Shown here: positions 8,378 through 12,267 of the stretch, piece by piece
Layout: each line of letters starts with the position of its first letter
Numbering within the stretch: position 1 is the first letter of the stretch
From: Thermococcus eurythermalis
GTDB taxonomy: Archaea > Methanobacteriota_B > Thermococci > Thermococcales > Thermococcaceae
DNA length: 64,000 nucleotides
Assembly (NCBI RefSeq): GCF_000769655.1
Contig: NZ_CP008887.1
Coordinates: 1,798,001 to 1,862,000 of the forward strand
Reading direction: 5' to 3'
The notes under the pieces: model-generated
What the model was told of the DNA's origin: nothing
Seen by the model: only the letters and a program-made list of their open reading frames with translations
Database searches by the model: none
Made by a program: the position numbers and the translations under genes

Positions 8378-9106
8378 ATGGGAGTTGAAAAGGTTCCAAA
8401 ATACGACATCCCGACCATCAAGGTCGACTACGTTTTTATTGACCTCGACAAGATGAAGCCGCACGAGCAGCTTGTCCAGAAGGAGCTCGAGGCCTTTATT
8501 GAGAGCGTCACGGGAAGTGGTCTCTTCTGGAAGCCCATGCTCCTCGCAAAGATTCCGGGGACGGACGAGTACCTCATCGTTGACGGCCACCACCGCTGGG
8601 CCGGTCTTCAGAAGCTCGGCGCGAAAAGGGCCCCGTCCGTTATCCTCGACTACTTCAGCGCCGATGTTAAGGTCTACACCTGGTACCCGGCCTTCAAGGG
8701 CGACCTCAACGAAGTCCTTGAGAGGCTCAAAGCCGAGGGGCTTGAGGTTATAGAGGACCCCGAGGCCGAGGAGAAGGCCGAGAGGGGCGAGATAGCCTTC
8801 GCCATCGTCGGTGAGAAGGTCTTTGCTATTCCTGGCGGTCTTGAGGAGCAGAAGAAGGTCAGCAAGGTTCTCGACGAGATGAGCGTCGAGGGCAGGATCG
8901 AGCTCATCTACTACGGCCTCAAGGAGGACGCCAGAGAGGACATGGGCAAGGGCGAAATAGACTACGTGTTCATCAGGAAGGCTCCGAGCAAGGAGGAGGT
9001 CATGGAGCTCGTCAAGCGCGGCGAGGTCTACTCCCCGAAGACCACCAGGCACGTCCTCCCGTTCAACCCGGACAAGATTGACGTCAAGCTTGAAGAGCTG
9101 TTTTAA
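8378..9106 (+). CDS. serK: ADP-dependent L-serine kinase (ParB/Srx fold)
   Basis: 242 residues. The family was defined by T. kodakarensis SerK, which phosphorylates free L-serine to O-phosphoserine with ADP as donor, feeding cysteine synthesis and sugar metabolism. The fold is ParB/sulfiredoxin-like, yet the protein is metabolic and not a partition factor. The catalytic Glu is present at residue 30 (KPHEQ), and the metal/nucleotide motif VDGHHRWAGLQKLG spans residues 68-81 with Asp69 and His72. The ATG at 8378 is preceded by GGAGGG. Single gene with its own promoter and a nearby dyad; a T-rich stretch follows the stop. Confidence 0.93.
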   Translation: MGVEKVPKYDIPTIKVDYVFIDLDKMKPHEQLVQKELEAFIESVTGSGLFWKPMLLAKIPGTDEYLIVDGHHRWAGLQKLGAKRAPSVILDYFSADVKVYTWYPAFKGDLNEVLERLKAEGLEVIEDPEAEEKAERGEIAFAIVGEKVFAIPGGLEEQKKVSKVLDEMSVEGRIELIYYGLKEDAREDMGKGEIDYVFIRKAPSKEEVMELVKRGEVYSPKTTRHVLPFNPDKIDVKLEELF

Positions 9107-9186
9107 TGCCCTATGACTTCTTTTTGATTTTGTTGTAGCATAATTCTTTAAATAGACGTGCTTTGAAATTTTTATTGAGGGAAAAT

Positions 9187-11157
9187 ATGAGTCTCTCATG
9201 GGTGGCTTCAACAACCAATATACTTCGGATTGTAAGTGATTTAGATCGCTATAGAGTTTGGTTGAAAAAGTTCCATGAAATTGACTTAACAAACGATCAA
9301 GAAGTTTCTAGTGAGATTTTTCTAGGTTACAAGTTTTTCTTTGATGTTGCTTTTAGAGCTCTTCTCGATGACTTAGTTTCCGTGCCGTGGTTTGACGGAG
9401 AGGATGAAATTTTTATTAGCGCTCTTGGAAGAGGGGTGCATCTTAATAACATCCCCAACAGTTCAGAGCATGTTATCTTCTTAAAGAACATATGGTACAA
9501 ACACCTAGAAAAAGTCCTCTTAGCAAAAGACTGGAAAGATCTCAAAGTCAGATTAAAATATCTCAACCTGAATGTCTTAGAGAAGTTCTTTGAGGTATTT
9601 AAATGCTGTATCGTGCCCGAGAGCCCGTATTCCCTTGAAAAACTGTATTGGCTATGGTCAATAGACGACGCGCTAGTTAGATATACCGATACTCAGATGG
9701 GATATCCCAAGCCCTATGTTGACATACTAGTTCCACAAACCAGCAAATATTATGGAAATGCCGATGAATATTTAGACATAGTTTTTCGAGGTTATGTGTA
9801 CACACTCCAATATTTGTGGTATTCACTGATAGGGGAGGAGAGAGATTTCTCAAAGATACCGCATTTAGATAAAATGCATATTGCAGACAAAATTTTTGGA
9901 AAAGAAATCCAAAGAGAACTTTACTCGTTAATTCCAAAAGAAGAAAAAGAAGAAGTTGAAACTAGATGGATCGAACTTGAACGTTACATCAAGTGGAAGA
10001 GCCTGGATCGCTTTTTCGGTATACTAAACGAGAATTTTGTGAAAAAACTTGAGAAAACATATGGAATTATGCATATCAGCCCAAATAACAGCGAACTCTT
10101 TAGGGTACGTTGTAAATGTGACCCAATACAAATCCTCAAGAAATTTTATCGTCCTTTTCCGGAACCCTCTTTTATGGAATCAGATAAGAGAAAAAGCTAC
10201 GAAGACTGGAAGCGGTACTTAGATGTAGAATTTCTTTGGCTTCCATTAGACACTCTTAGTTCTGCAGGAGGAGGAACGTTTAATGGTGCAGCTGCATTTA
10301 TATATCTCCTTTCAGGACTATGTGAGTTTAAGAAAAAGCAACGGGCAACAAATCCCACAAAGGTTCTGAGAATAAAGCATCCTGAGGACATTGGTCACAG
10401 GATATCCTACGCTCTTTTGGTAGAATCGTTTGGACAGCTTTACAACCCCCCTGGGTGGATTGTGTTTTATGAGGTAGGAACTGATTTTTCAGGTACTGGT
10501 GGATCCTGGTATTATGAGGTGGAAGATGTTATCAAAAAATACGGCAAAATGCTTGAGGTAAGAGATGTTGTTGTACCCGAGGAGATTTTTAGGAAGTACT
10601 TACTTAACGAGTCTGTACGTGAAGTTTCAAACGAATATTTTCAAATAGAAAGCCTAAAAAAGAGGGTTCTGGAGTATGAAAGTCATGTACAAAGACTCCA
10701 CGAAGCCATGTCCTCTTATAGGGGGTTACTCCCGGAATTGCTAGTTTATTATCTTTTAAGCTCTGGAGAGCTTCCAATTAAAAAATTCAAGGATATCAAA
10801 TGGCGTGTCACACTTGGCGGGGAAGAAATAGACATCCTAGCTTTAGATGAAGATGAGGTTCCTTGGATTTTTGAGTGTAAATTCAACACGCACAAAGAGG
10901 AGTTTGCCTCAATAGTTGATCAGCTAAAGCGGAAAAAGGAACAAGTAGAGAAAGCGTATAAAAGAACACCAGTTCTTTACTTAGTGTTCTTGGCCAATAA
11001 GAACCAATATGAACTGAGCTACTTCGAAAAGTACAACATTAACGTCTTGGTACTTGAAAGAGAACTCAGAAAGTATTTAGACATAAACACTATTGAGAAA
11101 TTACTAGTGGATATCCCTAGCATCTCCTTGGATGAAATCCATAGCAATTTATATTAA
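9187..11157 (+). CDS. AT-rich orphan with C-terminal PD-(D/E)XK nuclease-like domain
   Basis: 656 residues, one large gene visibly richer in A+T than everything around it (ATA, AAA, GAA, TTA codons dominate), which suggests recent transfer. Residues 1-500 match no family I know; they are rich in aromatic and charged residues. The last 150 residues carry a restriction-endonuclease-like signature: GGEEIDILALD with Asp549, then WIFECKF with Glu563 and Lys565, followed by a helix (EEFASIVDQLKRKKEQVEKA) and a strand VLYLVFLA. This order, D-x14-E-x-K, is the PD-(D/E)XK core. The ATG at 9187 follows GAGGG. A role in defence or DNA repair is inferred from domain and composition only. Confidence 0.75.
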   Translation: MSLSWVASTTNILRIVSDLDRYRVWLKKFHEIDLTNDQEVSSEIFLGYKFFFDVAFRALLDDLVSVPWFDGEDEIFISALGRGVHLNNIPNSSEHVIFLKNIWYKHLEKVLLAKDWKDLKVRLKYLNLNVLEKFFEVFKCCIVPESPYSLEKLYWLWSIDDALVRYTDTQMGYPKPYVDILVPQTSKYYGNADEYLDIVFRGYVYTLQYLWYSLIGEERDFSKIPHLDKMHIADKIFGKEIQRELYSLIPKEEKEEVETRWIELERYIKWKSLDRFFGILNENFVKKLEKTYGIMHISPNNSELFRVRCKCDPIQILKKFYRPFPEPSFMESDKRKSYEDWKRYLDVEFLWLPLDTLSSAGGGTFNGAAAFIYLLSGLCEFKKKQRATNPTKVLRIKHPEDIGHRISYALLVESFGQLYNPPGWIVFYEVGTDFSGTGGSWYYEVEDVIKKYGKMLEVRDVVVPEEIFRKYLLNESVREVSNEYFQIESLKKRVLEYESHVQRLHEAMSSYRGLLPELLVYYLLSSGELPIKKFKDIKWRVTLGGEEIDILALDEDEVPWIFECKFNTHKEEFASIVDQLKRKKEQVEKAYKRTPVLYLVFLANKNQYELSYFEKYNINVLVLERELRKYLDINTIEKLLVDIPSISLDEIHSNLY

Positions 11158-11180
11158 ACCTCCCTTTCTCACTTCCTATG

Positions 11181-11230
11181 CCGATGAGGAATCAACCCAC
11201 TGAAAGATGATGACGCATGGGCTTATCTGA
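11181..11230 (+). ncRNA. C/D box sRNA candidate
   Basis: All four boxes of an archaeal C/D guide RNA occur with near-ideal spacing: C box CCGATGA (11181-11187), 12-nt guide, D' CTGA (11200-11203), 3-nt spacer, C' ATGATGA (11207-11213), 13-nt guide, D CTGA (11227-11230). Such RNAs, bound by L7Ae, Nop5 and fibrillarin, direct 2'-O-methylation of the target base paired five positions before D or D'. Predicted target strings are UGGGUUGAUUCC for the D' guide and AUAAGCCCAUGCG for the D guide; I could not assign them. It fits wholly between two genes. Confidence 0.72.
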
Positions 11231-11251
11231 GGTGCGTCCGGGGGAGTAATG

Positions 11252-12209: not shown

Positions 12210-12267
12210 GCCCGATGACGAAGGATTAACCGGCTGACACGTGATGACATCGGCCTTGACCGAGGGC
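12210..12267 (+). ncRNA. Second C/D box-like sRNA candidate
   Basis: CCGATGA (12212-12218), 15-nt guide, D' CTGA (12234-12237), 3-nt spacer, GTGATGA (12241-12247), 12-nt guide, then CCGA (12260-12263) in place of a canonical D box. A 4-bp closing stem GCCC/GGGC (12210-12213 with 12264-12267) brackets it. TTAAAA at 12182 is placed about 26 bases before the expected 5' end. The off-consensus D box lowers confidence. The D-guide target would read UCAAGGCCGAUG. Confidence 0.42.

Follow-up and report, generated by a model that had tools for sequence, protein, structure and literature searches.

Gene X, an open reading frame in the chromosome of Thermococcus eurythermalis, encodes a protein that we consider, with a probability of about two in three, to be a horizontally mobile archaeal immune effector, in which an N-terminal part (the N-module) would sense a cue and license cleavage by a C-terminal nuclease. 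The defence role is inferred from genomic context, namely from the defence genes that neighbour relatives of X in other archaea. Judged from its composition and distribution, X is a mobile, horizontally transferred gene that is foreign to its chromosome. Sequence comparisons further assign it to an undescribed archaeal family, which combines a constant front of about 470 residues with exchangeable back ends, usually of a nuclease fold; no description of this family was found in the literature searched. The antiviral genes that accompany some of its members point to a virus sensor of a new type, which would activate a nuclease.

Position, composition and mobility of gene X

Within the window, i.e. 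the whole stretch of 64,000 nucleotides that was analysed, the gene for this 656-aa candidate sensor-nuclease was delimited from its ORF, translation, relatives and GC/GC3 values. It occupies positions 9187..11157 of the forward strand, with the ATG at 9187 and the stop codon at 11155-11157. As the earlier note had described, it is one gene of 656 codons with serK (8378..9106, forward strand) on its left and a HAD gene on its right, and the coordinates agree. Its greater AT-richness in comparison with both neighbours was likewise confirmed, the GC content being 0.380 and GC3 0.382, vs 0.547-0.590 and 0.616-0.817, correspondingly, in eight neighbouring genes. Upstream of X, we read a TATA-like sequence, TTTAAATA (9147..9154, forward strand), and GAGGG is located at 9177-9181, ahead of the ATG; the TATA-like element and the upstream sequence suggest that X may have a promoter of its own.

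Between X and the HAD gene, where the insert ends on its right side, lies a C/D-box sRNA-like sequence (11180..11232, forward strand), which scored 33.9 bits with the Rfam model sR47 (cut-off 40) and 26.7 bits with sR14, and which aligns with the empty site of genome G024. It should be added that a second sequence of this kind, ahead of the DUF835 gene (12211-12265), scored over the cut-off (sR14, 41 bits). Relatives mostly carry one C/D-box sRNA-like sequence after serK, and HAD and DUF835 are not arranged in the same order in all genomes, which suggests that this intergenic spot has been reshuffled.

Gene X was present in three of the 115 genomes of the phylum, namely in the window genome (G000), G009 and G037. 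The copy in G009 is intact, and that in G037 (47% identity) has decayed, with two in-frame stops and one frameshift. In G000 and G009, X follows serK, and in G037 it is found between idsA and leuS, the serK site of this genome being empty. serK itself occurs in 57 of the 61 genomes of the genus, and at the 30 serK loci read it mostly has a C/D-box sRNA immediately after it and then HAD or DUF835, an arrangement that represents the empty site. Because there are only three carriers, two sites and empty serK sites in relatives, X was not inherited vertically across the genus, in line with the foreign origin proposed in the earlier note. Between G000 and G009 serK is 94% identical, and the X proteins at the same site only about 65-66%, which would fit one old insertion followed by losses, fast evolution, or two separate events. 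At the serK site the ends of the insert are short, AT-rich and TTTTAA-like, and no clean target-site duplication was seen.

Across the family, X genes were more AT-rich than their flanks at 19 of 20 loci, and remnant or split copies were detected in G037, G653, G343 and G704. In the N-module tree, members of host family f31 fell into three separate positions, although the deep branches of this tree are weak. One genus harbours both a full-length X (L049 8350-10305) and a remnant of 72 residues (L053, G343:C1:1731852-1732046), each adjoining methyltransferase genes that resemble trimethylamine methyltransferases; the two may go back to one insertion that has decayed to different degrees.

A lone AT-rich gene that is mobile between sites and leaves decaying copies might also encode a free-standing endonuclease and be selfish, driving its own insertion into intergenic sites. 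This would sit badly with insertion sites that differ and show no recognised integrase or intron signals, with the retention of the 470-residue front through exchange of the nuclease, and with the operons with methyltransferases described below, and we regard it as very unlikely.

The nuclease domain and the module in front of it

The PD-(D/E)XK nuclease domain, delimited by the structural model, Foldseek and profile matches, comprises residues 512-645 (10720..11121, forward strand). The pattern D549-x13-E563-C-K565 is present exactly as the earlier note had it, with the predicted catalytic aspartate D549 at 10831..10833 and the second half of the motif, E563-C564-K565, at 10873..10881 (both forward strand). 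By itself this pattern would be weak evidence: its loose form, D-x(8,20)-E-x-K, appeared in 57% of composition-shuffled tails, and in 4.4% once hydrophobic flanks were included. The motif is more than chance because it is conserved in the relatives. Thus, E517, the glutamate of the first core helix (10735..10737, forward strand), D549, E563 and C564 do not vary among the relatives that retain the nuclease C-terminus, and the conservation of the predicted catalytic residues extends down to 16-17% identity. K565 is kept in all but two such relatives, being replaced by T in G847 and by R in G276, so that some family members may be inactive.

An AlphaFold model built from 22 sequences (m8082589ed8d4) had a pLDDT of 86.4 and a pTM of 0.70, an earlier model from four sequences having been poor (pLDDT 56). 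The model contains the alpha-beta-beta-beta-alpha-beta core (helix 482-525, strands 534-543, 546-554 and 559-565, helix 570-591 and strand 596-601) with D549, E563 and K565 in order, and the top PDB matches are members of the PD-(D/E)XK superfamily, features that place the domain in this superfamily. The fold proposed in the earlier note is therefore borne out by the predicted structure as well as by the residues conserved in relatives.

The leading Foldseek matches in the PDB were NucS/EndoMS, Card1, SfsA and Cdn1, over about 105-137 columns and with E-values of 0.006-0.09 and probability 1.00; with E-values of 0.006-0.02, kinship to NucS or Card1 holds at the level of fold class only. A profile search of PDB sequences returned AF1548 (E=0.009) and Can2 (E=0.014), the latter matching over chain residues 234-349 only, i.e. 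within the nuclease part of Can2. Pfam matched the window protein with DUF234 only (E=0.0016, score 19.3 vs the cut-off of 22.5), and its matches in NCBIfam and PADLOC were of no use. The likeness to this C-terminal domain of archaeal P-loop ATPases is thus a weak match of the nuclease region below the cut-off, and the P-loop ATPase domain that precedes DUF234 had no ATPase match in X. Furthermore, PADLOC CARF_PDDEXK models matched four family members (best 7.6e-9), with the matched residues, wherever these were given, lying in the nuclease part (about 451-597 in the G309 protein). A BspD6I-like nickase, the structural match of rank 7, was dropped (rmsd 19-37), SRP14-like folds from both PDB Foldseek searches were weak (probability 0.47-0.63) and set aside, and PHROG and NCBIfam matches were weak and judged to be due to chance.

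As the nuclease core of X has NucS/EndoMS as its best structural match, and the X profile picks up a NucS gene, a NucS/EndoMS-like role in the repair or processing of DNA has to be considered. However, X occurs in a few per cent of genomes, is mobile and is often a pseudogene, and for this reason a role as a repair factor is a poor fit. Moreover, NucS/EndoMS is a repair enzyme of about 230 residues with a small N-terminal domain, whereas X, patchy and mobile, is a protein of 656 aa with a different front; the NucS architecture is absent from X, the approximately 105-110 matching columns all lying in the nuclease, as judged by length and core position. We hold this to be the least probable of the readings considered.

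The N-module itself (residues 1-475) consists of an all-helical front (residues 1-350; 9187..10236, forward strand), modelled with a pLDDT mostly of 80-97, and an alpha/beta domain (residues 354-475; 10246..10611, forward strand), recognised from the alignment, invariance counts and secondary structure. In the model, a long helix (residues 482-525; 10630..10761, forward strand) leads from the N-module to the nuclease. The alpha/beta domain holds the most conserved site of the family, made up of H398, S407-Y408, G423-W424, F427 and D433-x-S435-G436; H398, S407, Y408, W424 and F427 were invariant in 20 of 20 covering sequences, and D433 and S435 each differed in a single sequence. No match to residues 1-475 was obtained in Pfam, NCBIfam, PADLOC or the PDB, although Foldseek ranks whole-model matches and the nuclease could thereby mask a weak match of the front. 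The statement of the earlier note that a front of about 500 residues is undescribed accordingly stands for the libraries searched.

The domain behind the N-module is not constant. In G438 the nuclease is replaced by an SLFN_AlbA_2 (Schlafen/AlbA_2) domain (E=2e-20), and in G443 and G1206 by a third C-terminal domain (L085 6856-7425 and L105 7623-8177, both reverse strand), the two versions of which are related to each other (blastp 4e-9) and had no useful Pfam match. Because the domain behind it changes, the N-module is a module in its own right, and the exchange of effectors indicates that it is the sensing and control part. More specifically, and at somewhat less than even odds, the N-module would be an archaeal counterpart of CARF or SAVED with a fold not yet described: it would sense infection, serve at least three different effector domains and bind a ligand at H398, S407-Y408 and D433-x-S435.

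Relatives across Archaea and their genomic neighbours

With the window protein alone as a query, no match was found in phages, plasmids, viral contigs or genome contigs; the distant relatives were reached only with a profile built from the three Thermococcus copies, which was then grown stepwise. Profile searches of archaeal genomes and plasmids revealed about 20 such relatives across Archaea. Among 394 genomes sampled from the phylum of G394, 15 gave a match, some only by remnants or by the nuclease region. Loci in which the profile matched the nuclease region only (L045-L047, L067, L068 and L074-L080) were left out of the family; L047, rejected as a member, is the NucS gene mentioned above. 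A member from a named, cultured archaeon is WP_011222360.1 (L104 7971-9815), a full-length protein annotated as hypothetical and encoded on plasmid pNG500 of Haloarcula marismortui.

By raw count, defence genes were present at seven of the 20 X loci (G309, G341, G610, G847, G482, G1206 and, by a weak Mrr match, pNG500), and about 12 of the 20 were without recognised defence neighbours. The family is mobile and patchy and, on this count of neighbours at 20 loci, found near other defence genes. The three Thermococcus copies have ordinary neighbours with no defence genes among them; the defence neighbours that the earlier note proposed to look for are thus seen around relatives in other archaea, but not around the window copy.

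G309 carries an apparent operon of an HKD-Snf2 helicase (PADLOC, 1.1e-160), an Eco57I methyltransferase, a RecF-like ATPase (best match mad3, 4.6e-18) and X, followed by an EVE-domain gene. This candidate multi-gene defence operon (L050 6827-18988, reverse strand), with a 171-aa protein also encoded downstream of X, matches parts of the MADS, DISARM and IIG models, with a full fit to none. In G610 and G847, an Eco57I/TaqI_C methyltransferase gene is placed directly upstream of X, with an overlap of 4 bp in G847; here too the genes appear to form an operon. The type I locus of G1206 has genes for HsdM, HsdS-like, HsdR-like, DUF262-like and OLD-like ATPase proteins near X, HsdS and DUF262 having been read by eye from the sequence. 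AbiEi and AbiEii stand beside X in G341, DUF262-like and DruE/DpdJ-like helicase genes in G482 (Druantia-like, Gmr-type company), and a HEPN protein, a weak Mrr match and an antitoxin/PIN pair near X on pNG500. Separately, a 1066-aa protein near the G759 member (L083 11219-14419, reverse strand) appears STAND-like by eye and had no PADLOC match at 1e-8.

The methyltransferases bring in the possibility that X supplies the restriction activity in a methyltransferase-linked system: its N-module would read DNA, and X would cut according to the mark of an Eco57I-type adenine methyltransferase, attacking DNA lacking the modification or, where X is orphaned, DNA carrying it. Such a role would agree with the position of X directly after the methyltransferase in G610 and G847, in the apparent operon of G309 and beside HsdM in G1206, and with an Eco57I methyltransferase encoded elsewhere in 3/3 X-bearing Thermococcus genomes vs 26/61 in the genus, a co-occurrence that is not significant (chance about 0.07). 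However, most X copies, including that of the window, have no methyltransferase nearby, and several of the linked methyltransferases resemble IIG enzymes. Neither does this role explain why the nuclease can give way to a Schlafen domain, which belongs to a known type of RNase, or to a domain without a nuclease match. Altogether, we think it unlikely. The single-protein defence candidate of the earlier note remains the supported reading, with the amendment that the system is not always single-gene, being methyltransferase-linked in G309, G610 and G847.

Proposed action and comparison with known systems

As an immune effector, X would have its nuclease kept idle by the N-module until the latter detects a sign of infection by a virus or plasmid. 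The nuclease would then be released allosterically through the long helix, and the released X dimer would cut nucleic acid, either that of the invader or, suicidally, the cell's own. In those genomes that have a DNA methyltransferase gene ahead of X, methylation may label the cell's own DNA; in the window organism, X would act alone.

Can2/Card1 of type III CRISPR systems resemble the layout proposed for X, a sensor front with a PD-(D/E)XK nuclease behind it. Matches between the nuclease parts exist at the profile and fold levels, the Foldseek match of the X nuclease to Card1 having a probability of 1.00 and an E-value of 0.012. Once activated by cA4, Can2 cuts supercoiled DNA and ssRNA in a metal-dependent manner, and the study describing it overlaid its nuclease on EndoMS (PMC7969007). 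The front of Can2/Card1 has about 165 residues, in contrast to about 470 in X, and the X family exchanges its effector. No CARF domain was found in X, the matches to CARF-nuclease models covering the nuclease part only where positions were shown, and no CRISPR neighbours were seen at X loci.

Shedu (SduA), in which a single protein combines nuclease and sensor (PMC12839542), is likewise a one-protein defence system, and its PD-(D/E)XK nuclease also follows the sensor. It differs from the X family, in which a constant front is combined with different effectors. The window protein had no Shedu match in Pfam or PADLOC, and Shedu was not among the seven PADLOC models matched by 23 members; both libraries contain a Shedu model. 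By these tests X lies outside Can2/Card1 and Shedu, because it has no CARF domain and no match to a Shedu nuclease model.

Archaeal immunity beyond CRISPR and restriction-modification is poorly known. If the proposed role is true, X would represent a widespread archaeal immune family that is absent from PADLOC-DB 2.0.0, with a sensor without a recognised fold and an interchangeable effector. In a genus open to laboratory genetics the family is represented by one gene alone, which makes the proposal directly testable. Furthermore, the combination of a constant sensor with varying effectors would provide a handle for finding further effector types.
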